A stretch of DNA of 32,789 bases from an uncultured Blautia sp. (GTDB lineage Bacteria > Bacillota > Clostridia > Lachnospirales > Lachnospiraceae), in assembly GCA_946626695.1 (NCBI GenBank), contig CAMOUV010000004.1:1-32789 (forward strand). Reading direction: 5' to 3'. Shown piece by piece: positions 2,215-32,137 of the stretch. Within the stretch, counting starts at the first letter, position 1; every line of letters starts with the position of its first letter. The position numbers were made by a program, and so were the translations under genes. The notes under the pieces are model-generated. The model saw only the letters and a program-made list of their open reading frames with translations, was not told the DNA's origin and did not search any database.

Positions 2215-2243
2215 TGAGTCACGGAACCTGTCCCCGTGACTCA
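2215..2243. repeat. Copy 2 of the palindromic element: TGAGTCACGG-AACCTGTCC-CCGTGACTCA
   Basis: Perfect 10-bp arms around the 9-nt loop; terminal TCA (2241-2243) is the TGA stop of the minus-strand CDS. Confidence 0.9.
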
Positions 2244-4347: not shown

Positions 4348-4348
4348 A

Positions 4349-6972: not shown

Positions 6973-6982
6973 CCTTCACCAG

Positions 6983-7026
6983 AAAAGCGCAGCACAGGCG
7001 TAATTTCTACGCTGCACTGCGCTTTT
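6983..7026 (-). terminator. Hairpin between the first substrate-binding protein gene and the ATPase gene (attenuator/processing-type terminator)
   Basis: aaaagcgcag (6983-6992) ... ctgcgctttt (7017-7026), with inner gcgta/tacgc pairing. Lies between CDS 7062-8021 and CDS 5428-6972. Confidence 0.65.
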
Positions 7027-7061
7027 TTTCAGTTAACTATTGCATTTTGATGACAGCAGGA

Positions 7062-8021
7062 TCAGATTCCGTATGTGTCTACATCTTCCTGGGTGATCTG
7101 GGTTGCGTCAAAGCCCTTCTCTTCCATGATGACAACCTTCTCATCGATCTCTTCGCCGGCTTCAAGCTTTTTGATGATCTCGTCAATGTAGGAAGCCTGG
7201 AACGGGTTGCACTGTCCGTCGTAGTTCCAGTTGCCTGCCAGCAGCTCTTCCAGAGCCCACTTGTTGCAGTCAAAGCCCATTACGATGACATCGCCGTCTA
7301 CGCCGTGGCTGATGTTTGCCTTGTCAAGAGCCGCTACGGCACCCTTTGCCATATCGTCGTTCTCTGCGTAGATTACGTTGAAGGATTCGCCGGAGTCAAT
7401 CACAGACTGTACGATCTGCTGTGCCTTCTCTGCATTCCACTCTGCGGTCTGCTGGGTGACAATGTTGACGTTCTCTTCTTCTGCGAAACTGTCAACCGCC
7501 GCGGTACGTCCCTGCTGTGCAGCGGAGCCCATAACGCCCTGGATGTGAATGATGTTGTATTCATCAAGTCCCTGAGAGGACAGCCAGTCAATGGCTGTGG
7601 TGCCTTCCAGTGCCATGTCGGAAACGATGGAAGCCACATACAGATCTTCCGGAGCGTCGATGGTACGGTCGAACAGAATTACGGAAACGCCTGCATCCTG
7701 TGCATCCTGCAGAACACCTTCCCAGCCGGCTGTATCTGCCGCGGAAAGAAGAAGATAATCAACCTCATCCTGGATGAACTTCTGGGCTGCTGCGATCTGC
7801 TCGTCGTTCTTCAGGCTGTATGCAAATTCTGCATCATAACCGTTTTCTTCGCAGAACATCTTCTGAAGGTCTGCATCATTTGCGGTACGGTAACCGGATT
7901 CATTCGGGTCGTTGTTGATAATGCCAACCTTGATCAGGCCGTCTTCTGCGTTGACCATGACTGTGCTGCAGGCAGCAAGAACAGCTGCGGACATGAGAGT
8001 TGCCAGTACTTTCTTATTCAT
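7062..8021 (-). CDS. Sugar ABC transporter substrate-binding lipoprotein (second, divergent PF13407-type paralog)
   Basis: MNKKVLATLMSAAVLAACSTVMVNAEDGLIKVGIINND...; LAAC lipobox; FIQDEVDYLLLSAADTAGWEGVLQDAQDAGVSVILFDRTID. Confidence 0.9.
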   Translation of the reverse strand: MNKKVLATLMSAAVLAACSTVMVNAEDGLIKVGIINNDPNESGYRTANDADLQKMFCEENGYDAEFAYSLKNDEQIAAAQKFIQDEVDYLLLSAADTAGWEGVLQDAQDAGVSVILFDRTIDAPEDLYVASIVSDMALEGTTAIDWLSSQGLDEYNIIHIQGVMGSAAQQGRTAAVDSFAEEENVNIVTQQTAEWNAEKAQQIVQSVIDSGESFNVIYAENDDMAKGAVAALDKANISHGVDGDVIVMGFDCNKWALEELLAGNWNYDGQCNPFQASYIDEIIKKLEAGEEIDEKVVIMEEKGFDATQITQEDVDTYGI

Positions 8022-8180
8022 TTTCTTTCCTCCTTGCAAAAAACAAGTTTACTTGATGGTCTTATTGTATCGGACCGAAAAAGAAAAATCCATCCAGATC
8101 ATTCTTCAAACGGTTGAATTTTCTTTGTAATTCAGCCGTCCGGGAAAGCCGGGTGGATTATTTTCCGAAAAAGGTTGATT

Positions 8181-9689
8181 TTATTCTGTTTGTTCCCTGT
8201 CTGTATCTTCCGACTGCTTCCCCGCAGTCTTCGGAAGCCGTACCGTCACCCTGGTTCCCTCTCTGTCACGGCTTTCAACAGAGATTCCGGCCGTCTCACC
8301 GAAATTCAGGCGAAGGCGTTCATTGACGTTGTAAAGACCATAGATCTCCGTCCCGGCAGGTTCCTTTTTACGGATTCCCTCCCGTACCTGTGTCAGGCGT
8401 TCCTCCGACATTCCGATTCCGTCATCCTCCACTTCGATCCGGAAAAACGGTCCTTCCGGAATCCCGCGGATACGGATATGCCCTACTCCGCGCTTGTTTT
8501 TCACTCCGTGATACAGCGCATTTTCCACCAGAGGCTGTATCGTGATCTTCGGGATCTGATATTCATACAGCTCTTCCGGCACATCGATCTCATATTCCAT
8601 GATGTCCTGATACCGGATCTGCTGTATTTCCAGATAGCTTCTGACATGGATGATCTCTTCCCGCAGAGACACGATATCCTTACCCTGATTCAGGGAAGAA
8701 CGGAAAAACTCCGAAAGACTCCCCACCATCCGCACGACGGTCTCCCGGTCTCCGGATTCCGCAAGCCATACGATGGCATCCAGCGTATTATAGAGGAAAT
8801 GCGGATTGATCTGCGACTGCAGAAGCTGGAACTCCGCCTTTCTCAGGCGTACCTGCTCTGTTGTCACCTGCTCCAGAAGATCATTGATCTTGTCGATCAT
8901 CACATTCATGGAATCGCTCAGATTCCCGACCTCGTCGGCCGTATCCACCTGGGAGCGGACCGAAAAATCCCCTTTTGCAACCTGCTCTGTCACCTTTTCC
9001 AGCTGTCGGAGAGGACTGGTGATACTGCGCGGGATCACAAAGGACAAAAGGAGCAGCAGGGCAGACAGCACCGCAAATACGATCAGGGAGCCCCAGACCA
9101 GCTTCAGGAATGTTTCCTGATAACGGGTCCTGGCTTCCTGCAGATCCCGCAGTTCATAATAAATGTACTCAAAGACCGATTCCTTTACCAGGGAAGTCAC
9201 GATCTGCACATCATTTTCCCAGATTTCGATATTTTCCTCGTAACGATCGCCCAGAGCAAGGTTTTCTTTGATCCTCTCGGTATAGGTGGCAAGGTTGGTC
9301 AGATATTTCTTGACGCTGTTCAGACGGTCCCGGTTCTCTCTGGAATCCGTGACGGAATCCAGCCGTTCAACCACCCGGTTCGCCGCGCCGAGCATGGCAG
9401 ACAGCCGGGATTCTTCCATGGTCTTGTTTCCTACGATCAAAAGATAGGTCTCGTAGTCAAAATCATCCTGAAAATCCAGGCTGAACTCGCTTGCCGATAC
9501 CACCGAATCGACCATTCCCTCATACTGCCGGTTGCTGATCCACAGATTGTACAATACAAAAGTCAGAAACAACAGCAGCGGGATCAGGAGAAGCAGATAC
9601 GAATAACGGATCTTGGTCGCCAGCGAAGAGCCGCGGTAGATGTCTCTCACCTTTCGACGTATGGAATTCGATGCTCTCTGATTTTCCAT
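8181..9689 (-). CDS. Sensor histidine kinase, YesM/LytS-type (two TM segments, HAMP, His_kinase, HATPase_c)
   Basis: QSQINPHFLYNTLDAIVWLAE, NALYHGVKNKRG, DDGIGM motifs; HAMP region following SITSPLRQLEKVTEQVAKGDFSV. Confidence 0.93.
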   Translation of the reverse strand: MENQRASNSIRRKVRDIYRGSSLATKIRYSYLLLLIPLLLFLTFVLYNLWISNRQYEGMVDSVVSASEFSLDFQDDFDYETYLLIVGNKTMEESRLSAMLGAANRVVERLDSVTDSRENRDRLNSVKKYLTNLATYTERIKENLALGDRYEENIEIWENDVQIVTSLVKESVFEYIYYELRDLQEARTRYQETFLKLVWGSLIVFAVLSALLLLLSFVIPRSITSPLRQLEKVTEQVAKGDFSVRSQVDTADEVGNLSDSMNVMIDKINDLLEQVTTEQVRLRKAEFQLLQSQINPHFLYNTLDAIVWLAESGDRETVVRMVGSLSEFFRSSLNQGKDIVSLREEIIHVRSYLEIQQIRYQDIMEYEIDVPEELYEYQIPKITIQPLVENALYHGVKNKRGVGHIRIRGIPEGPFFRIEVEDDGIGMSEERLTQVREGIRKKEPAGTEIYGLYNVNERLRLNFGETAGISVESRDREGTRVTVRLPKTAGKQSEDTDREQTE

Positions 9690-9720
9690 TCTGTCTTTCC
9701 TTTCAGAACCGGCATCCCGG

Positions 9721-11349
9721 TCATGCCAGGCCTTCCGGCCGGCTCTCGCTGCTGCGGTACTGCGTCGGTGTCATCCCCTGTGTCTTCTTGAAAAGATACG
9801 AAAAATAGTGGGAATCCTTGTATCCGACCTCGGCACTGATCTCACTGCTCTTTTTGCTGGTACACCGGAGCAGTTCTTTCGCCTTGCTCATACGGTAATC
9901 CGTCAGATAACGTATGAAGGTCTTCCCGGTCTGCTGGGAGAAGATCATGCTGAAATGGTTGGGCGAAAAATTGACATGAGACGCCAGCATGTTCAGGGTC
10001 AGTTCCTCATTGGCATAATGTTCCGCAATATAGGCGATGGAAGCCTCCACCACATTCCTGTATTTGTTTCCCGACACCTGCTCCCGCCGGCGGACAGCTT
10101 CCTCCATGATCCGGATCACATAGCGCATCGCCAGATCCTCGTTCTGAAAAACTTCGGGATTGACATCCGGCGTCTCCACGATTTCTCTGGAGCACTGGAG
10201 CTCCTCCACAAAATCCGCCGTGCAGAAATACGCATCCATCACAATATACTGACGGAACAGACTGGAGCGCATGGCAGAGGCGTTGAGCCCGTGGAAAAAC
10301 TCTTCCACAAAAAAGCCCACCTCCCGGATCTCTCCTACCCGAAGGAAGTTGCGGATCCCCGTCCGGTCGATCCCCAGTGTACTGATGCGGCTGAGATCAA
10401 CCTCCTCCCCGGTCAGTCCGACCCGCTCCGGCAAGAGACGGTCGCTGTCAACGATCATACTCTCCTTCACAAAAAACCGATGGGCAAATCCCTTCCCGGC
10501 TTTGGCGAAGGACTCGGGCAATGCGCTGATCCGGTTCACGGGCTTTCCGATCCCTCCAAAATAGCGGATCTGCGGGTACTGCCCGATCACATCCGTAAAA
10601 ACCTGCAGCGTCTTTTCCTGTTTTTCTCTCAGTTCTTCCTCCGAATCGGCCTGCAGAAGCAGTGCTTTTCCTTCCAGACCTCTGTCAAAGACGATGCATT
10701 CCGATGCATCGATCCGTTCCAGGAGCATCTTCTCCACCTCCACCACGCTGGGCGAATACTCCGAGTCCGCATGATGGATCGAGCTTGTCCGCAGCAGAAC
10801 GATATTATACCAGGCGGAGGACAAGGGAAGCATAAGGCTGTCTGCCTTCTCCAGAAGCTCCTGCACGGAGCCGTTCCCGGTCACCAGATCCTGGAACAGA
10901 CGATTCTTCTCCCGGATGGCCGTCTCCTCCTGCTCCTTCCGGTACTGCTCCATCAAAAGAGACAATTCCTGTTCTTCCCGGATCTGGGCCGTAACTCTGT
11001 GGATCGCTTCCAGAAGCTGGGAGGAATTGATCGGCTTCAGAAGATAGTCTGTCACGCCAAGCTGGAGCGCAGTCTTTGCATAATCAAATTCATTATATCC
11101 GGACAAAATGATGATCTTGATCCTGGGAAATTCTTTTTTCACAAGCCGTGAAAGCTCCAGTCCATCCATAAAAGGCATCCGGATATCCGTAATCAGAATA
11201 TCCGGTTTTTCCTTACGGATCAGAGGATACGCCACTTCGCCGTCACTGGCTTCTCCTACCAGCTGAAGTCCTTCCTGTTCCCAGGGAATGCTGTTCGCGA
11301 TTCCCTTCCGGATCACGACCTCGTCTTCCACGAGAAAAATCCTGTACAT
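9721..11349 (-). CDS. Response regulator with C-terminal AraC-type HTH (YesN-like)
   Basis: MYRIFLVEDEVVIRKGI...DILITDIRMPFMDG...LKPI receiver motifs; C-terminal LNMLASHVNFSPNHFSMIFSQQTGKTFIRYLTDYRMSKAKELL...VGYKDSHYFSYLFKKTQGMTPTQYR. Confidence 0.95.
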   Translation of the reverse strand: MYRIFLVEDEVVIRKGIANSIPWEQEGLQLVGEASDGEVAYPLIRKEKPDILITDIRMPFMDGLELSRLVKKEFPRIKIIILSGYNEFDYAKTALQLGVTDYLLKPINSSQLLEAIHRVTAQIREEQELSLLMEQYRKEQEETAIREKNRLFQDLVTGNGSVQELLEKADSLMLPLSSAWYNIVLLRTSSIHHADSEYSPSVVEVEKMLLERIDASECIVFDRGLEGKALLLQADSEEELREKQEKTLQVFTDVIGQYPQIRYFGGIGKPVNRISALPESFAKAGKGFAHRFFVKESMIVDSDRLLPERVGLTGEEVDLSRISTLGIDRTGIRNFLRVGEIREVGFFVEEFFHGLNASAMRSSLFRQYIVMDAYFCTADFVEELQCSREIVETPDVNPEVFQNEDLAMRYVIRIMEEAVRRREQVSGNKYRNVVEASIAYIAEHYANEELTLNMLASHVNFSPNHFSMIFSQQTGKTFIRYLTDYRMSKAKELLRCTSKKSSEISAEVGYKDSHYFSYLFKKTQGMTPTQYRSSESRPEGLA

Positions 11350-18123: not shown

Positions 18124-19056
18124 TTAAAAGATGGATCCGTATCCCGTGATCTTCCCTTCCAGATCCTTCCGGTACCGTTCGTTGGCCGGATCCAGACTGT
18201 TGACGGTGACACAGCCATCCCCGATATGGGCGGTGGAATGAATGTACCGGCCCTCTCCCATATAGATGGTCACATGGCCAGGGAAGAAGATCACGTCGCC
18301 TTTTTTCAGTTCCTCTTCTGTGATTTCATGCATGGGATATTCCTCCGGCATGCCGACGTCCCGGTGCAGCAGGATCCCCTGCTCCAGATAGCTCATGAAC
18401 ACCAGACCGGAGCAGTCCAGCCCCTGGGAGGATTTGCCTCCCCAGCGGTACTGGGTGCCCAGATAGCGTTCTGCACTCTGTATCACTGCATTCCGGATCG
18501 CTTCTTCATCCCCGTTCAAGATCGCTTCCTGATACGCAAAGAAACGTTTTTTATGCGGATCCTCCGCCTTCGTATCCAGAAAATAGCGGTCGTTGTCCCG
18601 CCGCTCTTCCAGATACCAGGAACGTGTATAGCCTTCCCTTCCTGCGGCGGTTCTCACCCGGACCCAGCCATCCTCCAGATCCTTTTCGAGGCGTTCCACA
18701 AGGGAGCCCTTGATCATCAGCTCCAGAGGAAGCCCCTGCACCTTCGGCTCGGACAGAAGATCGGCTTCTCCGATTCCGATCCGGAAAAAGCGCTCCTTGT
18801 CCTGGCGCCGTTTCAGTTCCTCCTCATCACAACAACAGACTGCACGTTCCGGGATATAGCCTTCGTATCCATAATGGGTCTCAACCCGGATCCATCCATT
18901 GACCGCATTCTCATCCAGCGTACGGACCGCCCAGCCCGCAAAAATCTCGTCCTCGACACCGTTCCTGTTTCGTTCCGGATCCTCACCCGGTCCGCTGTGC
19001 AGATAACAGTGCTCTGTACATATGACTCCAGTCTTCATGGCAGCTTCCTCATCCAT
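18124..19056 (-). CDS. NlpC/P60 cysteine peptidase with bacterial SH3 domains (YkfC-like)
   Basis: YLGTQYRWGGKSSQGLDCSGLVFMSYLEQGILLHRD...LKKGDVIFFPGHVTIYMGEGRYIHST; upstream SH3-like NGWIRVETHYGYEGYIPE and DGWVRVRTAAGREGYT; no signal peptide. Confidence 0.88.
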   Translation of the reverse strand: MDEEAAMKTGVICTEHCYLHSGPGEDPERNRNGVEDEIFAGWAVRTLDENAVNGWIRVETHYGYEGYIPERAVCCCDEEELKRRQDKERFFRIGIGEADLLSEPKVQGLPLELMIKGSLVERLEKDLEDGWVRVRTAAGREGYTRSWYLEERRDNDRYFLDTKAEDPHKKRFFAYQEAILNGDEEAIRNAVIQSAERYLGTQYRWGGKSSQGLDCSGLVFMSYLEQGILLHRDVGMPEEYPMHEITEEELKKGDVIFFPGHVTIYMGEGRYIHSTAHIGDGCVTVNSLDPANERYRKDLEGKITGYGSIF

Positions 19057-19193: not shown

Positions 19194-19238
19194 AATAAGG
19201 AAGGGACGCAGAGCCTGTCCCTGCGTCCCTTCCTTATT
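19194..19238 (-). terminator. Terminator-like variant (copy 4) of the palindromic element
   Basis: Perfect 18-bp arms AATAAGGAAGGGACGCAG / CTGCGTCCCTTCCTTATT around the 9-nt loop AGCCTGTCC; minus strand continues TTTTC. Contains the TAA stop (19234-19236) of the FGGY kinase. Confidence 0.85.
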
Positions 19239-20721
19239 CATGCAGCAATACTTGTTTAACGGCGTTCTTCCAGCCGCGGTATTTCTCTTCCCGGATCTCT
19301 CCCGTCATTCGAGGTTCATACTCTGTATAGGCGATGGAATCGAAGATCCGCTGCGGATCATAGATTCCCGTCGAGATCCCGGCCATGTAGGCGGCGCCCA
19401 TTCCGGACAGTTCCTGCAGCTGCGGGATCTGCACCTTGCAGTCCGCCATATCGCTCTGGAACTGCATCAGGTACTCGTTTGCCGTCGGTCCGCCGTCGAC
19501 ACGGATGACCGGCACGGAAAGCTCCGTGTCCTTTCTCATCAGATCGATCAGGTCCGTGATCTGATAGGCGATGCATTCCACACACGCCTTGACCATCTCG
19601 TTGCGTCCCGTGGTCCGGGTGATGCCGGTAAACATGCCGGTGGCGTCCGGATCCCAGTAGGGAGACCCCAGGCCGGTGAAGGCCGGTACAAAATAGGTCC
19701 GGTCCTCTTTCCTCGCCTTTTCCGCCAGGGCAGCTGTCTCGCCGGGGTTTTCGATCAGTCCAAGCTCCTCCTTCAGCCAGGTGATGACGGCCCCGGTATA
19801 ATTGAGGTTTCCCTCAAAGACGTACTCAACCTTCCCGTCCCTTCCCCAGGCCAGGGAAGTAACCAGTCCGCTTTCGGAAAGCTTCGGTTCGGTTCCGATG
19901 TTCATCATCACAGAGGATCCGGTACCGTATGTGGCTTTCAGCTGGCCGGGATAGCGGCAGTTCTGGCCGAACAAGGCTCCATGGCTGTCCCCCAGCACGC
20001 CGCAGATGGGAATCTCCCGGGGAAGCAGTCCCTCCAGATCCGTATAGCCAAAGACCGAATCCGACATGCAGACCTCCGGCAGGGCCTCCGCCGGGATGCC
20101 AAAGGCCGCAAGCAGTTCTTCATCCCACCGCAGCGTATGAATGTTAAAGAGCTGGGTGCGGGAAGCATTGGAATAATCGGTCCGGAAAGCATGATCCTTC
20201 GTCAGATTCCAGATGAGCCAGACATCCATGGTCCCCACACAAAGCTTTCCCTCTTTTGCCAGTTCTCCCGCCTCCGGAACATTCTCCATGATCCACTGCA
20301 GCTTGGAGGCCGGGAAATAGGGAGAAAGAGTCATGCCGGTTTTCTGCCGGATCTCTTCCGCTTCCGCCTGGTGCCGCTCGCAGATTCCGGCTGCCCGGGC
20401 ACACTGCCAGACAATGGCATTCATCACCGGCTCCCCGGTCTCCCGGTTCCAGGCTCCGGTGGTCTCCCTCTGGTTGGAAATCCCCATCGCGGCGATCGCC
20501 TCTGCCGCGATCCCTGATTTCCGGATCACATCCCCGCAGACAGCCACCGTATTGGCAAGAATCTCCTTCAGATCGTGTTCCACATATCCCTTTTCATCGA
20601 TGATCTGGCGGTGCGGCCGGTCAGCCCGGGCGATCAGCTTCCCTTCCGCGTCAAAGATCATTCCCTTGGTCCCCTGGGTACTCTGATCCACGGCCAGAAT
20701 ATAGGTTTCTCTTTTCTTCAC
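19234..20721 (-). CDS. FGGY-family carbohydrate kinase, glycerol-kinase-like
   Basis: YILAVDQSTQGTKGMIFD; SNQRETTGAW; GDSHGALFGQ; ATYGTGSSVMMNIG; VDGGPTANEYLMQFQSDM. GTG start at 20721 (VKKRETY) chosen. Confidence 0.9.
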   Translation of the reverse strand: MKKRETYILAVDQSTQGTKGMIFDAEGKLIARADRPHRQIIDEKGYVEHDLKEILANTVAVCGDVIRKSGIAAEAIAAMGISNQRETTGAWNRETGEPVMNAIVWQCARAAGICERHQAEAEEIRQKTGMTLSPYFPASKLQWIMENVPEAGELAKEGKLCVGTMDVWLIWNLTKDHAFRTDYSNASRTQLFNIHTLRWDEELLAAFGIPAEALPEVCMSDSVFGYTDLEGLLPREIPICGVLGDSHGALFGQNCRYPGQLKATYGTGSSVMMNIGTEPKLSESGLVTSLAWGRDGKVEYVFEGNLNYTGAVITWLKEELGLIENPGETAALAEKARKEDRTYFVPAFTGLGSPYWDPDATGMFTGITRTTGRNEMVKACVECIAYQITDLIDLMRKDTELSVPVIRVDGGPTANEYLMQFQSDMADCKVQIPQLQELSGMGAAYMAGISTGIYDPQRIFDSIAYTEYEPRMTGEIREEKYRGWKNAVKQVLLHE

Positions 20722-20737: not shown

Positions 20738-21673
20738 TCAGCCGATCGCTTCCAGGACCTTCTTCGCAATGCCTTCGCCGGTCATCCCATAATACTCGAA
20801 GACTTCACCGGAGGTTCCGGTCACCACCGGAGCATCCGGAAGCGCAATGTTCACGACCTTCTTCGGGCAGTTTGCGCTCACCACCTGGGCCACCATGGAG
20901 CCCAGTCCGCCAAAGGGAGAATGCTCTTCTACCGTAATAACGGCTTTCGCATTCTGCGCAGCCTTGATGACTGCGGCCTCATCCAGCGGCTTGACACAGT
21001 ACATATCCAGCACGGTCGCATGAATGCCTTTCTCTTCCAGAAGTGCAGCCGCATCCAGCGCCGGACGGACCATCTCGCCGCAGGCTATGATCGCCGCGTC
21101 CGTGCCTTCGGTGAGAACCGTCGCATGGTTCATCTCGAAGGGACAGTTTTCCTCTGTATAAACATCCTCCACCGGATTTCTGCCGGTACGGATATAGGCG
21201 CATTTTTCATCCTTCAGCAGGGCTTCCATCAGATGCCGGGTCTGATGCCGGTCACTGGGAAGATAGACCCGCATGTTCGGAATGGCGCTCATGGCCGCGA
21301 TATCCTGGGCGGAATGGTGGCTCATCCCCAGGGCTCCGTAGCTCACACCTCCGCTGATGCCGATCAGCTTCACATTGGTATCGGAATAGGCGCAGTCCAC
21401 CTTGCACTGCTCGTAGCTTCTCGTGGTGATGAAGCTGGCCGGAGAGGCTGCGTAGGGCTTCATGCCCGCCTTTGCCAGGCCGGCAGCGATCCCCACCAGA
21501 TCCTGTTCCGCGATTCCCACCTCCACCGCCTGCTCCGGAAAACTATCAAAAAACGGCGTCAACGAAGCAGAACCTCTGGAATCCGAGCACAGGACCATGA
21601 TGTCCTTGTCTTCCTTCGCATGCTCCATCAGAACATCGCAGATTACTTTTCGATTCGGTATTGTGTTCTTCAT
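20738..21673 (-). CDS. Transketolase, C-terminal subunit (split type)
   Basis: SFPEQAVEVGIAEQDLVGIAAGLAKAGMKPYAASPASFITTRSYEQCKVD; ALGMSHHSAQDIAAMSAIPNMRVYLPSD; C-terminal EEHSPFGGLGSMVAQ. Start MKNTIPNRK overlaps the upstream stop (ATGA). Confidence 0.93.
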   Translation of the reverse strand: MKNTIPNRKVICDVLMEHAKEDKDIMVLCSDSRGSASLTPFFDSFPEQAVEVGIAEQDLVGIAAGLAKAGMKPYAASPASFITTRSYEQCKVDCAYSDTNVKLIGISGGVSYGALGMSHHSAQDIAAMSAIPNMRVYLPSDRHQTRHLMEALLKDEKCAYIRTGRNPVEDVYTEENCPFEMNHATVLTEGTDAAIIACGEMVRPALDAAALLEEKGIHATVLDMYCVKPLDEAAVIKAAQNAKAVITVEEHSPFGGLGSMVAQVVSANCPKKVVNIALPDAPVVTGTSGEVFEYYGMTGEGIAKKVLEAIG

Positions 21674-22500
21674 GCCAGCGCCGCCTTTCTCTCTTCCAGA
21701 TCCTTCATGATCTCCTGGTACTGCTCCGCAGAGGGAACCTTGTGATGCCATCCCGCCTTATTTTCCATAACAGGAGATCCTTTCCCCTTCACGGTATTCG
21801 CAATGATGCAGGTGGGTCTGTCCTTCACGGTCTTCGCCTGTTCGAAGGCGGCATCGAGCTCATCCAGATCGTTGCCGTCCTGCAGGGAGATCACGTTCCA
21901 GCCAAAGGCAGCGATCTTTGCTTTCAGGTCATCCAGAGCCATCACGTCTTCGGTACTGCCGGAGATCTGCAGACGGTTCCGGTCAATGATGCAGCACAGG
22001 TTGTCCAGTCCGAACATGGCGCCGGACATGAAGCCTTCCCAGTTGGAGCCTTCCGCCAGTTCCCCGTCGCCGGTCACCACATAGACCCGGTTCGGCTTTC
22101 CTCTTCTCTTCGCTGCCAGAGCCAGTCCCACCGCCACCGGCAGGCCATGTCCCAGGGAACCGGAATTCATCTCGATCCCCGGAAGGGTATTGTGAGGATG
22201 TCCGATGTACGGAGAATCAAATTTCGAAAAACGTGCCTTCACATCCTCCAGATCCAGAAAGCCTCTTTCGCAGAGGACTGCGTAATAGGCCTCCATGGAA
22301 TGGCCCTTGCTCAGGATAAAGTAATCCCGGTCCGGATCCTCCGGATTTTCCGGAGCGACCTTCAGCTGCCGGAAATACAGATCCGTCAGGATTTCCATCA
22401 CACTCATGTCGCCGCCGATATGTCCGCCGCCTCCGGCCATGATGATATCGATCGTATCCATTCTCAGTTTCCAGGCCAATGCCTTCAGATTCTCACTCAT
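21670..22500 (-). CDS. Transketolase, N-terminal (TPP-binding) subunit (split type)
   Basis: GGGGHIGGDMSVMEIL; ILSKGHSMEAYYAVL; GSLGHGLPVAVGLALAAK; VTGDGELAEGSNWEGFMSG TPP motif. Confidence 0.93.
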   Translation of the reverse strand: MSENLKALAWKLRMDTIDIIMAGGGGHIGGDMSVMEILTDLYFRQLKVAPENPEDPDRDYFILSKGHSMEAYYAVLCERGFLDLEDVKARFSKFDSPYIGHPHNTLPGIEMNSGSLGHGLPVAVGLALAAKRRGKPNRVYVVTGDGELAEGSNWEGFMSGAMFGLDNLCCIIDRNRLQISGSTEDVMALDDLKAKIAAFGWNVISLQDGNDLDELDAAFEQAKTVKDRPTCIIANTVKGKGSPVMENKAGWHHKVPSAEQYQEIMKDLEERKAALA

Positions 22501-22562
22501 CGATTGTCTCCTCACCTTTGATTCTGCTGTAAATACAGCTTATTCTATTGGATATTCTGTTC

Positions 22563-23990
22563 TCAGACCTCGTCAAATACCACATCTTCACCGTGCAGAT
22601 AGGCCTGTACCTTCTCCTCGATGGGATCATACAGATCCGGTTTCACGCCGATGTATTTGCAGGCCTCGTACACCACCGGAACCACATCGCCATGGATCGC
22701 AGCCACATGATGGATATACGGTCCTTCCACCACCTTGGCCTCCAGCCGTTTCAGGTTGGCCACCTCGACCCAGACATAGGTACCCCGGGTCCAGGGTCCG
22801 TCAATGCCCCTGGCGTGGCCCAGAAGGATGGAATACTCCCCGTCATCGCCGTCGAAACGCACCAGGCTCATGGGGCCGTGCTTGGCTTCGGCCGATACCG
22901 CTCCGTTCTGCGGGAAGGCCACCGGAACACAGATGGTCGGTTTTTCCTTCGCCACGGAGATGGGCCACGGACCGCAGTGCTGCAACAGCTCCCCGTTGTC
23001 ATTGTCCGGATGACGAACCGTCCAGTCGGAGAACATGACCCGCCGTTCGTTCATAGAAGCGGCTTCCGCGATCAGCTGGGAGATGGCACCGTGAATGTCC
23101 GTCTCACAGACCACCGGGATGCCTTCCTCGTTCAGCAGGGCGTTGGCCGCACAAGGCATGATGTTGATCTCATCCTGCAAAGCGTTCCAGCACTGGATGG
23201 CGATGGCGTTGCAGCCGTATTTTTCCGCCAGGGCCTTCATGGCCACCTTGAGACAGGCTACATTCTCCAGATACTTGTCCTCGATATCGCAGGTCATATT
23301 CTCTTTGCAGTACCCGATGACCTCAGCAACCTCTGTTTTCTCTTCCTTCCATCTGCGCATCTCGGCGTACAGCTCCGGAAGGGGGATCGGGGACAGCTGA
23401 ATGTTGAATTTTTCCAGAAGCTCCCCCTCGTTGCACATGGTGCTCCAGAAATCAAAAGGACGCGGCCCGATCTGCAGGATACGGGTATGCCGGAAGGTCC
23501 GCACCACATTGCAGACAGCCAGGAAGTCTTTGATTCCACGCTCAAATTCCGGATCTGTCAGATTGCAGTTGTTCATGTAGGTGAAGGGCACTTTGAAACG
23601 GCGCAGCACCTTGCCGGTGGCGAACAGGCCGCACTGGGAATCACGGAGACGCATGCCGTTCTCATCCGGCCGCTCATCCCTGGGGCCCCACAGAAGCACC
23701 GGAACCCCCAGCGCCTTTGCAAGACGGGCGCATTCGTATTCCGTACCGAAATTGGCATGGGGGATAAAAAGGCCGTCCACCTTCTCCGCCGTAAATTTCG
23801 CGATGATCTTCTCCAGTCCGGCATCATCGAACAGAAGCCCTTCCTCGTTGACATCGGTGATATCCACAAAATCGATCTCCAGCTCACGGAGCCGGTCCGC
23901 GATCCGCCCTCTGAAATCCAGTGCCGCCGGCGCGCTGAAAATACTTCTTCTGGTAGGTGCATATCCGATCTTTATTTTTGCTCTTGCCAT
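22563..23990 (-). CDS. L-fucose/L-arabinose isomerase-family protein
   Basis: MARAKIKIGYAPTRRSIFSAP...; VDGLFIPHANFGTEYECARLAKALGVPVLLWGPRDER; NAIAIQCWNALQDEINIMPCAANALLNEEGIPVVCETDIHGAIS is typical of the FucI/AraA fold group. Confidence 0.87.
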   Translation of the reverse strand: MARAKIKIGYAPTRRSIFSAPAALDFRGRIADRLRELEIDFVDITDVNEEGLLFDDAGLEKIIAKFTAEKVDGLFIPHANFGTEYECARLAKALGVPVLLWGPRDERPDENGMRLRDSQCGLFATGKVLRRFKVPFTYMNNCNLTDPEFERGIKDFLAVCNVVRTFRHTRILQIGPRPFDFWSTMCNEGELLEKFNIQLSPIPLPELYAEMRRWKEEKTEVAEVIGYCKENMTCDIEDKYLENVACLKVAMKALAEKYGCNAIAIQCWNALQDEINIMPCAANALLNEEGIPVVCETDIHGAISQLIAEAASMNERRVMFSDWTVRHPDNDNGELLQHCGPWPISVAKEKPTICVPVAFPQNGAVSAEAKHGPMSLVRFDGDDGEYSILLGHARGIDGPWTRGTYVWVEVANLKRLEAKVVEGPYIHHVAAIHGDVVPVVYEACKYIGVKPDLYDPIEEKVQAYLHGEDVVFDEV

Positions 23991-24070
23991 GGTCTTTCTC
24001 CTTTTTTTCAATCTCTGCATCCTGCAGCGGATGGTCTGTTGACGAAACTTTGGTTTCTGATTATGGTTCC

Positions 24071-24111: not shown

Positions 24112-24139
24112 AATAATTTACTTAATTTCGGACTTAATA

Positions 24140-24168
24140 TTGACTTTCTTTCTTTTACATCGTATCCT
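24140..24168 (+). promoter_or_regulatory. Putative sigma-A-type promoter for the LacI-family gene
   Basis: TTGACT (24140-24145), 17-nt spacer, TATCCT (24163-24168). Confidence 0.5.
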
Positions 24169-24219
24169 TGGATCAGCATACAAACCGTAAACCGTGTTAT
24201 GATTTCAGAGGAAAAGACC

Positions 24220-25218
24220 ATGAGCATATCCGCAAAGGAACTGGCCAGACAGCTGAATCTCAGTGCCGCCGCTGTTTCCATGGCACTGAACGACAAGCCC
24301 GGTGTCAGCCAGGAAACAAGAAAAAGAATCAAGGTTGCAGCAGAAAAGGCCGGCTATGATTTCAGCCGTATTCAGTCCAGAAAGAAAAAGACCGGAACCG
24401 TCGATTTTATCGTCTACAAAAAAAGCGGCGCCATCGTGGACGACACCCCCTTCTTCTCCAAGGTTTCCGAAGGCATTCAGACCTCCTGCACCGAACAGGG
24501 CTTCCGCCTCCGGACCCAGTATATCTATGAATCGGATTTCTCCCGGAAGGATCTGGAGGAGATCCAGTACTCCGACTGCGCCGGGATCGTCCTCCTGGGC
24601 ACCGAGATGGTGACGGAGGATCTGCGTCCTTTTCTGTCCCTGCCGATCCCGCTGGTCCTTCTGGACAGCTACTTCGAAACCTTCTCCTGCGACACGGTCC
24701 TGATCAACAATGAACAGGGAGCTTATGTGGCTGCCCGCCATCTCATCCGCAGCCACAAATGCCAGCCGGGCTATCTGAAATCCTCCTATCCCATCAACAA
24801 CTTTCTGGAAAGAGCGGACGGATTCAAAAAGGCGGTCCGCTCCCACGGCATGTCCTTCTCCCAGTCCATCGTTCACGAGCTCACTCCCTCCATGAGCGGC
24901 GCCTATGCGGACATGCGCGAGATTCTCTCCCGCGGGGAAAAGCTGGCCCGCGGATATTTTGCCGACAACGACCTGATTGCAGCCGGCGCCATCAAGGCCC
25001 TGCGGGAGGCAGGAAAAAAGGTGCCGGAAGACGTGGCGGTCGTCGGCTTTGACAACATCCCCATGAGCCAGATCCTGGATCTGACCACCGTCAATGTCCC
25101 CAAGGAATACCTCGGCCGGCTTGCTGCCAGCCGCCTGTTTGAACGGATCCGGGACCCCAGAATACCGGCCGTCAAGCTGTGCGTGGAAACCCAGCTCATC
25201 GACCGTTATTCCTGCTGA
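24220..25218 (+). CDS. LacI-family transcriptional regulator
   Basis: MSISAKELARQLNLSAAAVSMALNDKPGVSQETRKRIKVAAEKAGYDFSRIQ HTH; C-terminal VAVVGFDNIPMSQILDLTTVNVPKEYLGRLAASRL. Start could also be 24199. Confidence 0.93.
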   Translation: MSISAKELARQLNLSAAAVSMALNDKPGVSQETRKRIKVAAEKAGYDFSRIQSRKKKTGTVDFIVYKKSGAIVDDTPFFSKVSEGIQTSCTEQGFRLRTQYIYESDFSRKDLEEIQYSDCAGIVLLGTEMVTEDLRPFLSLPIPLVLLDSYFETFSCDTVLINNEQGAYVAARHLIRSHKCQPGYLKSSYPINNFLERADGFKKAVRSHGMSFSQSIVHELTPSMSGAYADMREILSRGEKLARGYFADNDLIAAGAIKALREAGKKVPEDVAVVGFDNIPMSQILDLTTVNVPKEYLGRLAASRLFERIRDPRIPAVKLCVETQLIDRYSC

Positions 25219-25273: not shown

Positions 25274-26380
25274 TTATACTTCTTCAAATGCGGCAGGTAC
25301 CTCGGTGATCCCGATCCCCGGGGTCTCCGGAAGCAGGATCTTTGCGCCGACATAATCCGGTCCGCCCGTATACGGATCCTCTTTGCAGAGGGAAGGACCG
25401 TCCAGATCCGCCATGGTGATGCATCCTCTGGCAGCGCCGAGATGAGCTCCGGCGCTGACCGAAACCTTGCTTTCCAGCATGCATCCGATCATACACTGCA
25501 CATCGTTTTTATCCGCGGCATCACAGATCCGCACAGCCTCATGGATGCCGCCCGTTTTCATCAGCTTGATATTGATCAGATCAGCGGCGTGCTCCTCCAT
25601 GATCCGCAGGGCATCCTCATAAGAAAAGACGCTCTCATCTGCCAGGATCGGCGTGTCCACATGGGCCGTTACGTACTGCAGGCCTTTAAAATCATGATAG
25701 TTGACCGGCTGTTCCACCAGTTCGATGATCAGGCTGGCATCCTCCATAGCCTGAATGGTGCGGACTGCTTCTGCCGTGGTCCATCCCTGGTTGGCGTCGA
25801 TCCGCAGGATCGGGTCGTTTCCGATAGCTTTCCGGATTTCTCTGACCCGCTCTACATCCTTTTCGCCGCCCTTTCCTACCTTCACCTTCAGGATCCGGAA
25901 GCCGTTTTCTACCGCCCGGATGCTGTCCCGGACCATCTCCTCTGTTTCATTGACACTAATGGTGATATCCGTTTCCAGTTCCGTTTCGATCTTCTCCGGC
26001 GCCTTCTGTCCCAGCAGCCGGAACAAGGGCAGTCCCTTTGTCTTTGCGTACAGGTCATACAGGGCGATGTCCACGGCGGCCTTCGCCGAGGTGTTCTTTG
26101 CGATGGCCTTTTCCATGGCTGCCATCACATCCTCCAGCGGCTCGAGCTCCATGCCCCGGATGGCCGGGGCGATATAGTACCGGATCGCTGCCTCGATGGA
26201 TTCCTTGGTGTCCCCGGTGATCACGGCCGTGGGCGGTGCTTCGCCGATGCCGAAGGTTCCATCCTCCGCCGTAACCTTTACCAGAAGGTCATTGACCGTG
26301 CTGACCGTGCGCAGCGCTGTTTTAAAGGGGGTCACAAGGGGAATATCTATATAACCGATTTCTATTTTCGTTATTTTCAT
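25274..26380 (-). CDS. Dipeptide (L-Ala-D/L-Glu type) epimerase, enolase superfamily
   Basis: LKVKVGKGGEKDVERVREIRKAIGNDPILRIDANQGWTTAEAV; LVEQPV; ILADESVF; INIKLMKTGGI; DLDGPSL. Confidence 0.9.
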   Translation of the reverse strand: MKITKIEIGYIDIPLVTPFKTALRTVSTVNDLLVKVTAEDGTFGIGEAPPTAVITGDTKESIEAAIRYYIAPAIRGMELEPLEDVMAAMEKAIAKNTSAKAAVDIALYDLYAKTKGLPLFRLLGQKAPEKIETELETDITISVNETEEMVRDSIRAVENGFRILKVKVGKGGEKDVERVREIRKAIGNDPILRIDANQGWTTAEAVRTIQAMEDASLIIELVEQPVNYHDFKGLQYVTAHVDTPILADESVFSYEDALRIMEEHAADLINIKLMKTGGIHEAVRICDAADKNDVQCMIGCMLESKVSVSAGAHLGAARGCITMADLDGPSLCKEDPYTGGPDYVGAKILLPETPGIGITEVPAAFEEV

Positions 26381-26393
26381 TCTCATTCTCCAA

Positions 26394-26425
26394 AAAGAGC
26401 CTGCCCGCTGCCGGGCAGGCTCTTT
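26394..26425 (-). terminator. Intrinsic terminator between oppA-like and epimerase genes
   Basis: AAAGAGCCTGCCCG-ctgc-CGGGCAGGCTCTTT perfect 14-bp stem; minus strand continues TT then GGAG. Confidence 0.8.
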
Positions 26426-26442
26426 CTCCGTGTATCTGTTGA

Positions 26443-28008
26443 TCAGTTGTTCGGGGTAATGTAGGTAAAGATGAAGTTTCCGCAGGAATAAACAAGTCCG
26501 CTGTAGTTATAGTCGTCATACAGGTAGGAGCTCATGGAGTGCAGGATCACCGTGATCGGGAGATCTTCTGCCAGGACAGCCTCACATTTCGCATAGTTAT
26601 CCCACTGCTCTTTCTGATCGACCGTGCTGGTAGCCGCATCGTAAGCTGCCTGATATTCATCGCTGTACCAGAAGCAGTTTGCATTTCCCATGCTGTTCAT
26701 GGAGCCGAACATGTTGGAAAGATCGGTGTAGTCCATAAACCATCCATAGTAAGCCAGGTCATAGTCGCCGGCGGTTCTGGTTGCGAAGAAGTTTTCTACC
26801 TTCTGCACCCAGCCGTTGGTGTCGATGCCAAGAACCTCTTTCCAGTCGTTGCAGACCGCCTCGGCGATCTCTCTTCGGCTGTCGTTGTTTACGATGTAGG
26901 TAAGAGCCGGGAAGCCTTCGCCGTTCTCATAGCCTGCCTCTGCAAGGAGTGCTTTGGCTTCTTCGCAGTTTGCTTCGTAATCAGAAAGGTCAAACCAGGG
27001 CTGTGCATACTCGGTAAAGTCAACGCCTTCATCATTGGTATAGCCGCTGCAGGCCAGCATCAGACCAGGCTCATCATTCATGTCACGGATCGCCATGATA
27101 CGGTCTCTGTCGATAGCCAGAGCCAGTGCCTTACGTACACGCACATCCTTCAGGACATCGTTGCCCTTCTCGCCCTGGTTGTACATGACGCAGTAGTTGT
27201 TGTTGCCGGCGGTGTAGAACAGGCCGTTTCCGTCCATTCTCGGTTTTTCTTCATCCGGGCACAGATCGGAGTAAACCAGCTCGCCGCTCTCGAAGGATGC
27301 CAGTGCGCTGCCTTCGTCCGTGGTCAGGATCCAGTGAATGGTTCCCACGGAGATGTTGGCTGCATCGTAGTAATCGTCACGAAGCTGCATGGTGACCTCT
27401 GCTTCATGGGTCCAGTCGGTCACTGTGAACGGGCCGTTGTAAACATTCTTTTCCGGATCGGTCGCAAAGCCTTCACCGTACTCTTCCACATAGTCGGCAC
27501 GTACCGGATAGGTGGACGGGAAAGCCAGAACGGAGGGAAGATAGCCGCAGGGGAACTTCAGGTTGATCACTACGGTCTTTTCATCCGGTGCTTCATAGGA
27601 TTCGGCGATATCGGAAAGAATGGTGGAATAATCCTCTGCGGTCTCCTCCAGGAACTTGAAACCGTAGATGAAATCATCCGCCTTGACAGGCTCTCCGTCG
27701 GACCAGGTGATATCGTCACGCAGGGTAAAGGTCCAGGTCTTCATATCCTCGCTGACGTCAACGGATTCCGCCTGACCGAGAACCGTATCTCCTTCCGGTC
27801 CGATCTTGTAGAGTCCTTCATACACATGACGGCAGGCCGAAATACCATTCAGCGCACCGACCACTGCGGTGTTCAGCTCCATGGAGTCTTCTCCGCCGCC
27901 GGTGATGGAGATTTCGATTTTGTCTCCCTCTGCAAAAACGCCTGCGGAAAGAGAAGCAGCTGCCATCGCGCCAACCAGGACTGCAGAGACAATCTTTTTC
28001 ATCTTCAT
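26443..28008 (-). CDS. oppA: Oligopeptide ABC transporter substrate-binding protein (OppA-like)
   Basis: SBP_bac_5-type: HVYEGLYKIGPEGDTVLGQAESVDVSEDMKTWTFTLRDDITWSDGEPVKADDFIYGFKFL; signal peptide MKMKKIVSAVLVGAMAAASLSAGVFAEG. Confidence 0.93.
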   Translation of the reverse strand: MKMKKIVSAVLVGAMAAASLSAGVFAEGDKIEISITGGGEDSMELNTAVVGALNGISACRHVYEGLYKIGPEGDTVLGQAESVDVSEDMKTWTFTLRDDITWSDGEPVKADDFIYGFKFLEETAEDYSTILSDIAESYEAPDEKTVVINLKFPCGYLPSVLAFPSTYPVRADYVEEYGEGFATDPEKNVYNGPFTVTDWTHEAEVTMQLRDDYYDAANISVGTIHWILTTDEGSALASFESGELVYSDLCPDEEKPRMDGNGLFYTAGNNNYCVMYNQGEKGNDVLKDVRVRKALALAIDRDRIMAIRDMNDEPGLMLACSGYTNDEGVDFTEYAQPWFDLSDYEANCEEAKALLAEAGYENGEGFPALTYIVNNDSRREIAEAVCNDWKEVLGIDTNGWVQKVENFFATRTAGDYDLAYYGWFMDYTDLSNMFGSMNSMGNANCFWYSDEYQAAYDAATSTVDQKEQWDNYAKCEAVLAEDLPITVILHSMSSYLYDDYNYSGLVYSCGNFIFTYITPNN

Positions 28009-28062
28009 GTTACATCCTCCTCGTAAAAAATTTATAACATCCCCTGAGGGGAGAGTTACCGC

Positions 28063-29073
28063 TTATTTCTTCATCTTCGGATCCAGGGCATCCCGCAGTC
28101 CGTCTCCGAACAGGTTGAAGGACAGAATGATCAGACTGATCAGCGCCGCCGGGAAAATGACTCTGTAGGGATAGGAGGTGACACCGTTCAGTGCCTCCGA
28201 AGTCAGGGACCCCAGACTCGCCATCGGCGCCGATACACCGATGCCCAGATAGCTCAGGAAGGCCTCCGTGAAGATTGCAGAAGGAATCTGCAGCATCACG
28301 GTCGCCACCAGCTGCCCGATACAGTTCGGGAGCAGATGCTGCCGGATCATCCGGGAGCTGTTGCATCCCAGAGCGCGGGAGGCTGTGACAAACTCCAGAT
28401 TCTTCAGCTGCAGGATCTGTCCGCGGACGATCCGGGCCATGCCGACCCAGTACAGCAGGCCATATACAATAAAGATGGCGATCAGACCGGACCCGATGCT
28501 CTGCAGGCCATGGAAAAACGGAACCTTCTGGATCAGATTGTCCAGCGGCTCGCTGATCACCATTTTGATGACCACGATCAGAAGGATCTCGGGAACCGAA
28601 TAAATGATATCCACGATACGCATCATCACGATATCCACCTTGCCGCCGATCAGACCGGAGATCGCTCCGTAGATGCTTCCCACGATCATGACGACCACCG
28701 CCGATACCAGACCGACGATCATGGAGATCCGGGTTCCGATCATGCAGCGGACCAGGATATCCCTCCCCAGACGGTCCGTCCCGAAGGGATGGGAAAGGCA
28801 AGGCCACAGGGCCTCATCTCCCCGGACCTGCTGGTCATAGGTATAGGGCGAAAGCATCGGCCCGATAAAGGCAAATACCGCCAGGATCCCGATGATGATC
28901 AGCGCCACCATGGCGATCCGGTTTGCCCTGAGCCTCTGCCAGCTGGCCTTCCAGTAGCCGATCTCCTCGGTCTCCAGGTTTTCCTCCGCAAAATATCCTT
29001 CTCCCAGAGGCGTGAAATCCTCCGGTTTTATTTTGCTCTGCAAACTCAGTACATTTACTTTCATCTCTACCAT
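28063..29073 (-). CDS. oppC: Oligopeptide ABC transporter permease (OppC-like)
   Basis: HPFGTDRLGRDILVRCMIGTRISMIVGLVSAVVVMIVG; ASRALGCNSSRMIRQHLLPNC. Confidence 0.93.
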   Translation of the reverse strand: MVEMKVNVLSLQSKIKPEDFTPLGEGYFAEENLETEEIGYWKASWQRLRANRIAMVALIIIGILAVFAFIGPMLSPYTYDQQVRGDEALWPCLSHPFGTDRLGRDILVRCMIGTRISMIVGLVSAVVVMIVGSIYGAISGLIGGKVDIVMMRIVDIIYSVPEILLIVVIKMVISEPLDNLIQKVPFFHGLQSIGSGLIAIFIVYGLLYWVGMARIVRGQILQLKNLEFVTASRALGCNSSRMIRQHLLPNCIGQLVATVMLQIPSAIFTEAFLSYLGIGVSAPMASLGSLTSEALNGVTSYPYRVIFPAALISLIILSFNLFGDGLRDALDPKMKK

Positions 29074-29076
29074 TCC

Positions 29077-29997
29077 TTATTCCAGAGTGATGCGCGGATC
29101 CACGATCTTGTACAGGATATCGCAGACCAGGTTCATCATGACGATCAGTGCGGAATAAAAGATCGTGACGCCCATGATCATCGTGTAGTCACGGCTGCTG
29201 ATCGAGCTGACGAAATACCGGCCCAGTCCCGGAACATTGAAAACGCTCTCCGCCACGAAACCGCCCGTAAGGATCGACGCGGTAAGCGGACCCAGATAGG
29301 TGATGACCGGGATCAGGGAATTCTTCAGGGCATGCACAAAAACAACCACAAACTCCGACATGCCCTTGGCCCGTTCCGTCAGCAGATAGTCCTGGTTCAT
29401 CACCTCCAGGATGCTGGCGCGGGTAAGTCTCGTCAGATAGGAAGCCGGATAGGTCGCAAGGACGATGGTGGGCATGATCCAGCCCCCCGGCCGGTTGTAG
29501 TTGATGGGCAGGATCCCCAGCCTCACGCCCAGGATGATCATCAGCCCCGCCGCGATCACATAGCCCGGCATGGATATGCCCATGGAGGACAGAACCCGTA
29601 TGATCCCGTCCGGCAGCTTATCCTTGCACAGACCGGAAACACAGCCGAAAACGATTCCGATGACCACCGCGATCAGCAGGGCCCGGAGACCCAGGCTCAT
29701 GGAAACCTTGAAGGATTCGGAAATGATCTCCGTCACGGTACGTCCCTTCTGAAGAACGTAGCTGGTCCCCATGTCTCCCTTTGCCAGATTGGCAAGGTAT
29801 TTTCCGTACTGCACATAGACCGGCTTGTCCAGACCGTATTTTGCGATCAGGATCGCACGGTTCTCCTCCGTGGCCTTTTCGGACATGAAGGGATCCCCCG
29901 GCATCAGGTTCATCAGAAAAAAGGTCAGGGTTATGATGGCAAACAGGCTGACTGCCGCCAGAATGATACGTTTGATGATATATCTTGAACTCTGCAT
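29077..29997 (-). CDS. oppB: Oligopeptide ABC transporter permease (OppB-like)
   Basis: MQSSRYIIKRIILAAVSLFAIITLTFFLMNLMPGDPF; LLTERAKGMSEFVVVFVHALKNSLIPVITYLG; ESVFNVPGLGRYFVSSISSRDY. Confidence 0.93.
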   Translation of the reverse strand: MQSSRYIIKRIILAAVSLFAIITLTFFLMNLMPGDPFMSEKATEENRAILIAKYGLDKPVYVQYGKYLANLAKGDMGTSYVLQKGRTVTEIISESFKVSMSLGLRALLIAVVIGIVFGCVSGLCKDKLPDGIIRVLSSMGISMPGYVIAAGLMIILGVRLGILPINYNRPGGWIMPTIVLATYPASYLTRLTRASILEVMNQDYLLTERAKGMSEFVVVFVHALKNSLIPVITYLGPLTASILTGGFVAESVFNVPGLGRYFVSSISSRDYTMIMGVTIFYSALIVMMNLVCDILYKIVDPRITLE

Positions 29998-30013
29998 TTG
30001 ATTCCTCCAGGGA

Positions 30014-30997
30014 TCACAACATATGACAGGCCGCAAAATGGCCCGGTGCGCTCTCCACAAGCTCCGGCATCCTCTCCGCACAGCACGCCTGCGCTTTCGG
30101 ACAGCGGGTACGGAACGGACAGCCCGAAGGCGGATTCAGAGGGCTGGGGATTTCTCCCTTCAGCAGGATCCTCTGCCGGCTTTCGCTGCGGTCCGGGTCC
30201 GCGATGGGGATCGCCGAGAGCAGCATCTGCGTATACGGGTGAAGCGGATTCCGGTAAAGCTCCGCACTGGTGGTCAGCTCCACCATATGTCCCAGGTACA
30301 TGACGCCGATCCGCTGGCTGATATGCTTTACGACAGCCAGATCATGGGCGATGAACAGATACGTAAGACCTCTCTCCGCCTGCAGCTCCTCCAGCATGTT
30401 GATGATCTGGGCCTGGATCGAAACGTCCAGGGCCGAGACCGGCTCATCACAGACGATGAACTGCGGGTTCACGGCCAGCGCGCGGGCTATGCCGATCCTC
30501 TGCCGCTGTCCGCCGGAAAACTCATGGGGAAAACGGTTGTAGAATTCCGCATTCAGCCCCACCAGCTTCATCAGCTCCAGGATTTTTTCCCTGCGCTCGT
30601 TTTTGTCGGAATAAAGCTGATGGATGTCCATGGCCTCCCCGATGATATCGGAGACGGTCTTTCTGGGATCCAGTGACGCATAGGGATCCTGAAAAACGAT
30701 CTGCATATGCTTGCGGTATTCCTTCATATCCTTGCCGACGATGTTTTCTCCGTTAAAGAGGATCTCGCCGGAGGTGGGCTCTTCCAGCCGCAGGATCGTC
30801 CGGCCGAGAGTGGTTTTTCCGCAGCCGCTCTCCCCGACGATGCCCAGGGTCTCTCCCTTCCGGATAAAGAAGCTGACATCATCCACTGCTTTCAGGTCCG
30901 TTTTTCTGACGAAGCCCGTCCGAACCTGGAAATATTTCTTCAGATTTCTGACCTCCAGCAGGTTCTCCTGCTGCGAAGTGTTGTTCGTGTTCTGCAT
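30014..30997 (-). CDS. oppF: Oligopeptide ABC transporter ATPase (OppF-like)
   Basis: [66 protein letters not shown]. Confidence 0.95.
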
Positions 30998-31044
30998 ATC
31001 GATTCCTCTACAGTCAGAGTTTTTGTCCCGGTCTGTCCGGGTGC

Positions 31045-32052
31045 TCATGCCTTTTCCTGCCGGCGGTCCTTCAGAAGAGACCAGCAGGCAGCGGCATGCT
31101 CTCCCTCGATTCCGATCAGCGGCGGATCCTCCCGGACGCAGACCTGCATCGCGTATTTACACCGCGGAGCAAAGGCACAGCCGGGCTTGACACAGCTCAT
31201 GTCAGGGGGATTTCCCTTGATGGGCACCAGCTTCTCCGCCACGTCCAGATCGATGTCCGGAACCGACGCCAGCAAGCCTTCGGTATACGGATGCCTGTGG
31301 CGGTAAAAGATATCTCTCTTGTTTCCGGTCTCCACGATCTTGCCCGCGTACATGACGATGATGTTGTCGCAGATATCCGAAACCACACCCAGATCATGGG
31401 TGATAAAGATGATCGCCATGCCGAGGCGGTCCTTCAGTTCCTTTAACAGATCGATGATCTGCGCCTGAATGGTCACATCCAGAGCTGTCGTCGGTTCATC
31501 CGCGATCAGAAGCTCCGGATCGCAGGACAGCGCCATCGCGATCATGACTCTCTGCCGCATGCCGCCGGAAAACTCATAGGGATACTGTTTTGCCCTGCGT
31601 TCCGGCTGATTGATGCCTACCAGCTCAAGCAGCTCGATCACTCTCTTTTTCCGGGAGGCCGCATCCAGAGTGGTATGTTTTTTCAACGATTCGTTGATCT
31701 GATATTCCACCGTGAACAAAGGATCCAGTGAGGTCATGGGATCCTGGAAGATCATGGCGATCCGGTTGCCCCGCAAAGCCTGGATCTCTTTCCGGTTCAT
31801 TTTCAGGATATCCTTGCCGTCGAACAGGATCTCCCCGCTTTTTACCTTTCCGCTGGGGGGTGTAAGCCGCAGGATCGCATGGCTGGAAACGGACTTTCCG
31901 CTGCCGGACTCTCCCACTATGCCCAGAACCTCTCCTCTTTTCAGTGTATAATCGATCCCGCGGACCGCCTGTACTTCTCCTGACTTATTAAAAAAAGATA
32001 TCGCCAGATCCTTGACTTCAATCAAGGTTCCGCTCTGTTTTTGTTCAGCCAT
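31045..32052 (-). CDS. oppD: Oligopeptide ABC transporter ATPase (OppD-like)
   Basis: [73 protein letters not shown]; start MAEQKQSG with upstream GGGAG. Confidence 0.95.
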
Positions 32053-32137
32053 CTTCTTCTCCCACAAATAAGGTAAGGATGCACAGATACACGCATAACC
32101 GTATATTCCGCGCATCCTTCTCACTTTCATGCTTTAA

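Follow-up and report, generated by a model that had tools for sequence, protein, structure and literature searches.

A Blautia gene that resembles glycerol kinase very likely encodes a D-apulose kinase in a D-apiose operon

The chemistry of D-apiose catabolism was reportedly set out by Carter et al. in 2018. In the form that we propose for the locus described here, apiosidases would release D-apiose from plant pectin or glycosides, an enzyme resembling L-arabinose isomerase would convert D-apiose to D-apulose, and a kinase would use ATP to turn D-apulose into D-apulose 4-phosphate. A split transketolase would then pass the two-carbon unit of D-apulose 4-phosphate to glyceraldehyde 3-phosphate, yielding xylulose 5-phosphate and dihydroxyacetone phosphate. 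Growth on D-apiose is reported for strains that carry the type of gene cluster seen in E. coli SE15 (PMC13001218); in Escherichia apsI is replaced by two oxidoreductases, and growth of the strains on D-apiose has been demonstrated (PMC13001218). The other point of reference is the glycerol kinase GlpK, whose signature residues are Arg83, Glu84, Tyr135, Asp245, and Phe270 (PMC3245297). In a crystal structure of GlpK with glycerol, the equivalents of Gln246 and Phe270 touch the substrate (PMC2680290).

We analyzed a stretch of 32,789 nucleotides from an uncultured Blautia sp. (contig CAMOUV010000004.1), referred to here in its entirety as the window. Our observations cover sequence, clade, gene linkage, co-occurrence across genomes, and the fold class of the isomerase. 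As far as sequence can tell, a kinase gene in this window very likely encodes a D-apulose kinase of the AplK type, as part of a four-gene D-apiose operon with a divergent LacI regulator. The features of the locus are as follows.

19234-20721, minus strand: FGGY kinase, proposed D-apulose kinase (AplK type), from profiles, alignment, trees, and predicted structure
19963-19992, minus strand: GDSHGALFGQ segment of the kinase, residues 244-253, catalytic Asp kept and the Gln246 of GlpK changed to Ser
20738-21676, minus strand: transketolase C-terminal half (AptB-like), with Pfam Transket_pyr and Transketolase_C, 35% identical to E. coli AptB
21670-22515, minus strand: transketolase N-terminal, ThDP-binding half (AptA-like), with Pfam Transketolase_N, 47% identical to E. 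coli AptA
22563-24020, minus strand: aldose-ketose isomerase of the L-fucose/L-arabinose isomerase type, proposed D-apiose isomerase (ApsI type)
24199-25218, plus strand: divergent LacI-family regulator of the operon, from profile hits

The kinase reading frame extends from a GTG start at position 20721 to a TAA stop and encodes 495 amino acids, with both the N- and C-terminal FGGY domains present (Pfam PF00370 and PF02782). An initial annotation had described a glycerol kinase-like protein that keeps NQRETT and PYF but has GDSHGALFGQ in place of GDQQAALFGQ. Position and alignment bear out each of these residues, with NQRETT at 83-88 and PYF at 134-136. Aligned to E. coli GlpK, the kinase retains the glycerol contacts Arg83, Glu84, Trp103, Tyr135, and Asp245, but has Ser at both Gln246 and Phe270 (YGTGSS, versus YGTGCF in E. 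coli GlpK). Thus, two of seven substrate contacts are replaced, and four of the five GlpK signature residues are present, with Phe270 being Ser.

Judged by alignment, the change at Phe270, which the initial annotation overlooked, is a more telling difference in the pocket than GDSHGALFGQ alone. Ser246 and Ser270 occur in every transketolase-linked relative examined and Gln and Phe in every GlpK examined, from several phyla, indicating that the pocket change is not due to chance. Ser246, Ser270, and Lys17 are invariant among the relatives of the kinase, and position 17 of GlpK is mostly Arg. The His and Gly of 'SHG' vary, with GDSHA, GDSHS, GDSQ, and ADSE also found. The idea of an altered pocket motif therefore stands with respect to the retained Asp and the Gln-to-Ser change, but the emphasis placed on 'SHG' does not: in these alignments, His and Gly are not diagnostic, and it is Ser246 together with Ser270 that matters.

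The predicted structure of the kinase has a TM score of about 0.9 to FGGY kinases, with GlpK crystal structures as the best matches. From the alignment and this fold (TM about 0.9 to GlpK) we infer a pocket mechanism; the substrate and the carbon that is phosphorylated are inferred as well. As in GlpK, a terminal CH2OH would be held and activated by Arg83, Glu84, Trp103, Tyr135, and Asp245, and the change of Gln246 and the bulky Phe270 to Ser would remove two contacts to glycerol and make room for a larger, branched ketose.

The initial annotation had also anticipated that automated pipelines would call this protein GlpK, and indeed they would: it passes the NCBIfam model PRK00047, 'glycerol kinase GlpK' (576.3 bits, cut-off 498), and 'glycerol kinase' is the product name given to its relatives in Monoglobus and Listeria. 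The equivalog model TIGR01311 is narrowly missed (569.5 bits versus a cut-off of 590.35). Enterobacterial AplK scores under both cut-offs, which fits its product name in E. coli SE15, 'FGGY family carbohydrate kinase', and means that misnaming as GlpK is limited to part of the clade. The PRK00047 score, the closeness of the predicted structure to GlpK crystal structures, and the four signature residues could all be read as marks of a second, diverged glycerol kinase of broadened specificity. We consider this highly improbable given the TIGR01311 score, the loss of Phe270 and Gln246, the placement of the kinase with AplK in trees, and the tie of its gene to isomerase and transketolase genes. 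In addition, the same genome holds a separate, typical GlpK (G000:C19:21142-22599) with GDQQAALFGQ, which is 63% identical to E. coli GlpK and, at 820 bits to PRK00047, scores far over both GlpK cut-offs.

For the apulose kinase assignment, we surveyed 150 genomes of the same family, including the source genome itself. Close homologs of the kinase were found in 22 of the 150, with a gap in identity separating a group at 49-61% from GlpK at 45-47%; all members of the former group have Ser246 and Ser270. In a maximum-likelihood tree of 67 sequences, all Ser246/Ser270 kinases examined, those of Firmicutes together with enterobacterial AplK, fell into a single clade separate from GlpK (support 89/100). 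The union of AplK with the Firmicutes kinases persisted when the pocket columns were removed (99 SH-aLRT), so the grouping is not driven by the motif. With or without those columns, the Blautia kinase fell outside the GlpK sequences. Clustering with GlpK enzymes that bear GDSHGAL, which the initial annotation had named as the outcome that would count against its proposal, was not seen; none of the GlpK enzymes examined carries that motif, and the kinase instead groups with AplK. Over its full length the kinase is more similar to GlpK (43-46% identical) than to enterobacterial AplK (38%), yet in the tree it falls with the latter. Position 135 is Leu or Met in enterobacterial AplK and Tyr or Phe in the Firmicutes clade; the two pockets are therefore not identical, and the two lineages may hold their substrate differently. 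One further Ser/Ser kinase gene, with a GDSQ motif (locus L203, genome G315), adjoins a LacI regulator and has no transketolase or isomerase neighbors.

Gene linkage separates the two kinds of kinase as well. Both transketolase halves lie near the kinase gene in 24/24 of the family's Ser/Ser loci versus 0/6 GlpK loci, and the kinase and a close homolog of the isomerase are present in the same 22 of 150 genomes. LacI homologs adjoin the isomerase gene in many related loci. In a transketolase tree, the operon copies are set apart from general split transketolases, of which the source genome has its own (G000:C23), separate from the operon pair; the tree does not clearly unite the operon copies with enterobacterial AptA. 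In a search for a shared operator of the regulator upstream of the isomerase gene, positions 24132-24145 nearly matched a ACTTAATATTAAGT-like site, but the consensus comes from a single locus and its enrichment is weak, so we claim no operator there.

The predicted structure of the isomerase (mean pLDDT 69) has a TM score of about 0.75 to L-arabinose isomerases, with L-fucose isomerases matching more weakly, and searching PDB sequences with phmmer found nothing similar to it. Its only NCBIfam match is the sulfoquinovose isomerase SftI (E 4e-30), which would point to the breakdown of a sulfosugar by the operon, through a transketolase route. We rejected this reading and assign it next to no probability: the SftI score is 105 bits versus a cut-off of 700, and the glycosidase genes linked to related operons are apiosidase- and rhamnosidase-like, not sulfoquinovosidases. 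To our knowledge, the sulfoglycolytic transketolase route also uses no sugar kinase.

Homologs of the isomerase with 26-29% identity adjoin aplK in Kosakonia, Leclercia, Phytobacter, Citrobacter, and other enterobacterial apiose clusters, in the place where apsI would be expected. In E. coli and Klebsiella, the clusters contain two SDR oxidoreductases in place of the isomerase, which fits the reported replacement of apsI (PMC13001218), and one Klebsiella pneumoniae plasmid record carries the isomerase form of the cluster. In the window and its relatives, too, the isomerase is encoded together with an aplK-type kinase and an aptAB-type pair. These aplK-adjacent homologs suggest an ApsI-type assignment for the window isomerase.

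A further line of evidence comes from apiosidases. In Listeria (L190) and in Monoglobus (L189), the operon has beside it a gene whose product contains the Pfam domain Apiosidase (PF13204). Genes similar to these adjoin the operon in three loci of the family (L044, L048, and L062) and in L202, and an isolated isomerase gene in L204; two enterobacterial loci (L092 and L093) also contain an apiosidase-domain gene. Among the 150 genomes, PF13204 was found in 13/22 kinase carriers versus 8/128 others (p about 3e-8, ignoring kinship), and strong matches (E below 1e-60) in 9/22 versus 1/128. This enrichment may come in part from degraders of plant polysaccharides in general. The source genome has a single apiosidase-domain match, a weak one on contig C77, and within the window neither an apiosidase gene nor a dedicated transporter adjoins the operon. 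At L052, L058, and L060, large genes resembling rhamnosidases, putatively of the GH78 family, lie directly 3' of the kinase gene, in keeping with the use of plant glycosides or pectin.

Could the kinase instead act on a different ketose that the isomerase produces, for example D-xylulose, D-ribulose, an erythrulose, or some other branched ketose, which the transketolase then cleaves? Enzymes with the L-arabinose/L-fucose isomerase fold use several aldoses, many related operons contain genes for a ribose-type transporter, RbsD, and ribokinase, and position 135 is unlike that of enterobacterial AplK. Nevertheless, the kinase lies in the AplK clade, apiosidase-domain genes adjoin the operon in Firmicutes and enterobacteria alike, and xylulokinase-type kinases are found elsewhere in the source genome; moreover, a plain pentulose 5-phosphate would need no dedicated transketolase pair in each operon. 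We regard another ketose as unlikely. Apulose, one of the candidate substrates listed in the initial annotation, now appears the best supported. The broader proposal made there, a kinase for a ketose or polyol other than glycerol, holds for the ketose; a polyol is improbable as a direct substrate, since what the operon generates is a ketose.

Some loci have the kinase and transketolase pair in a different setting. At L040, L049, L050, and L059, the pair has as neighbors a zinc polyol dehydrogenase gene and genes for another kind of sugar ABC transporter, with no isomerase gene nearby. The one such kinase detected in genome G084 has this dehydrogenase setting, and the isomerase gene is on another contig (C11; L204:6445-12999), where it adjoins an apiosidase-domain gene, a set of ABC-type transporter genes, and a LacI-like fragment, and where no kinase or transketolase gene is nearby. 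Such an arrangement hints that one ketose is reached from two feeders. It is possible, though we put it forward only tentatively, that the kinase and transketolase form a shared hub in the gut Firmicutes of this clade, fed either by D-apiose isomerase or by a polyol dehydrogenase, perhaps for apiitol. If so, the dehydrogenase would be a second entry into apulose catabolism, of which we know of no description.

Elsewhere in the window, positions 2241-11349 encode a sugar ABC transporter (binding protein, two permeases, and ATPase), a second binding protein, a histidine kinase, and an AraC-type response regulator; this transporter could be the supplier of the operon's sugar. On either side of the operon are a gene for an NlpC/P60 protein (18124-19056) and genes for an enolase resembling L-Ala-D/L-Glu epimerase and an oligopeptide ABC transporter (25274-32130), which look like a set for recycling murein peptides that the operon has split.

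The apiose pathway itself is already known, and the kinase would be a new, misannotated member of it; the finding is thus of value for setting right a systematic misannotation and for the testable predictions that follow. Standard annotation names a clade of probable apulose kinases, from gut Firmicutes and Listeria, as glycerol kinases, and metabolic reconstructions built on such names would credit these bacteria with glycerol use and miss apiose use. The two kinds of enzyme can be told apart by Ser246 and Ser270 together with transketolase linkage, and this combination could act as an annotation rule. A direct prediction is that apiose obtained from plant glycosides or pectin supports the growth of these bacteria.

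Compared with known systems, the kinase shares its clade and Ser246, Ser270, and Lys17 with AplK of E. coli SE15 (ECSF_RS02700), which carries the same Ser/Ser pair within GDSHAALFG and YGTGSS and whose gene is likewise linked to a split transketolase, aptA/aptB. The two proteins are 38% identical, and AplK has Leu135 where the window kinase has Tyr135. The SE15 cluster also differs in having two SDR oxidoreductases instead of an isomerase, its own ABC transporter, and a regulator of a different family. Closer to the window is Monoglobus pectinilyticus, whose 'glycerol kinase' UL127_RS03650 is 54% identical and has GDSHGALFG. Its genes come in the same order as in the window, from LacI through the isomerase and the transketolase halves to the kinase, but, unlike in the window, an apiosidase-domain gene directly follows the kinase gene and a sugar ABC transporter lies upstream.

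The lmo1034-type 'glycerol kinase' of Listeria monocytogenes (EL207_RS12280) is 37% identical and keeps Ser246 and Ser270, with ADSEAALYG where the window kinase has GDSHGALFG. Its operon (L190:4004-13086) has the order of the window, with LacI regulator, isomerase, transketolase halves, and 'glycerol kinase', followed by a PTS transporter and an apiosidase-domain gene, and the published cluster lmo1030-1036 agrees with this layout (PMC2996996). In the literature, we found no statement linking lmo1034 to glycerol or apiose; the Listeria operon is likely an unrecognized apiose operon. GlpK, both from E. coli and from the source genome, shares with the window kinase the FGGY fold and Arg83, Glu84, Trp103, Tyr135, and Asp245, but has Gln246 and Phe270 where the kinase has Ser, forms a separate clade, and lacks linkage to transketolase or isomerase genes.
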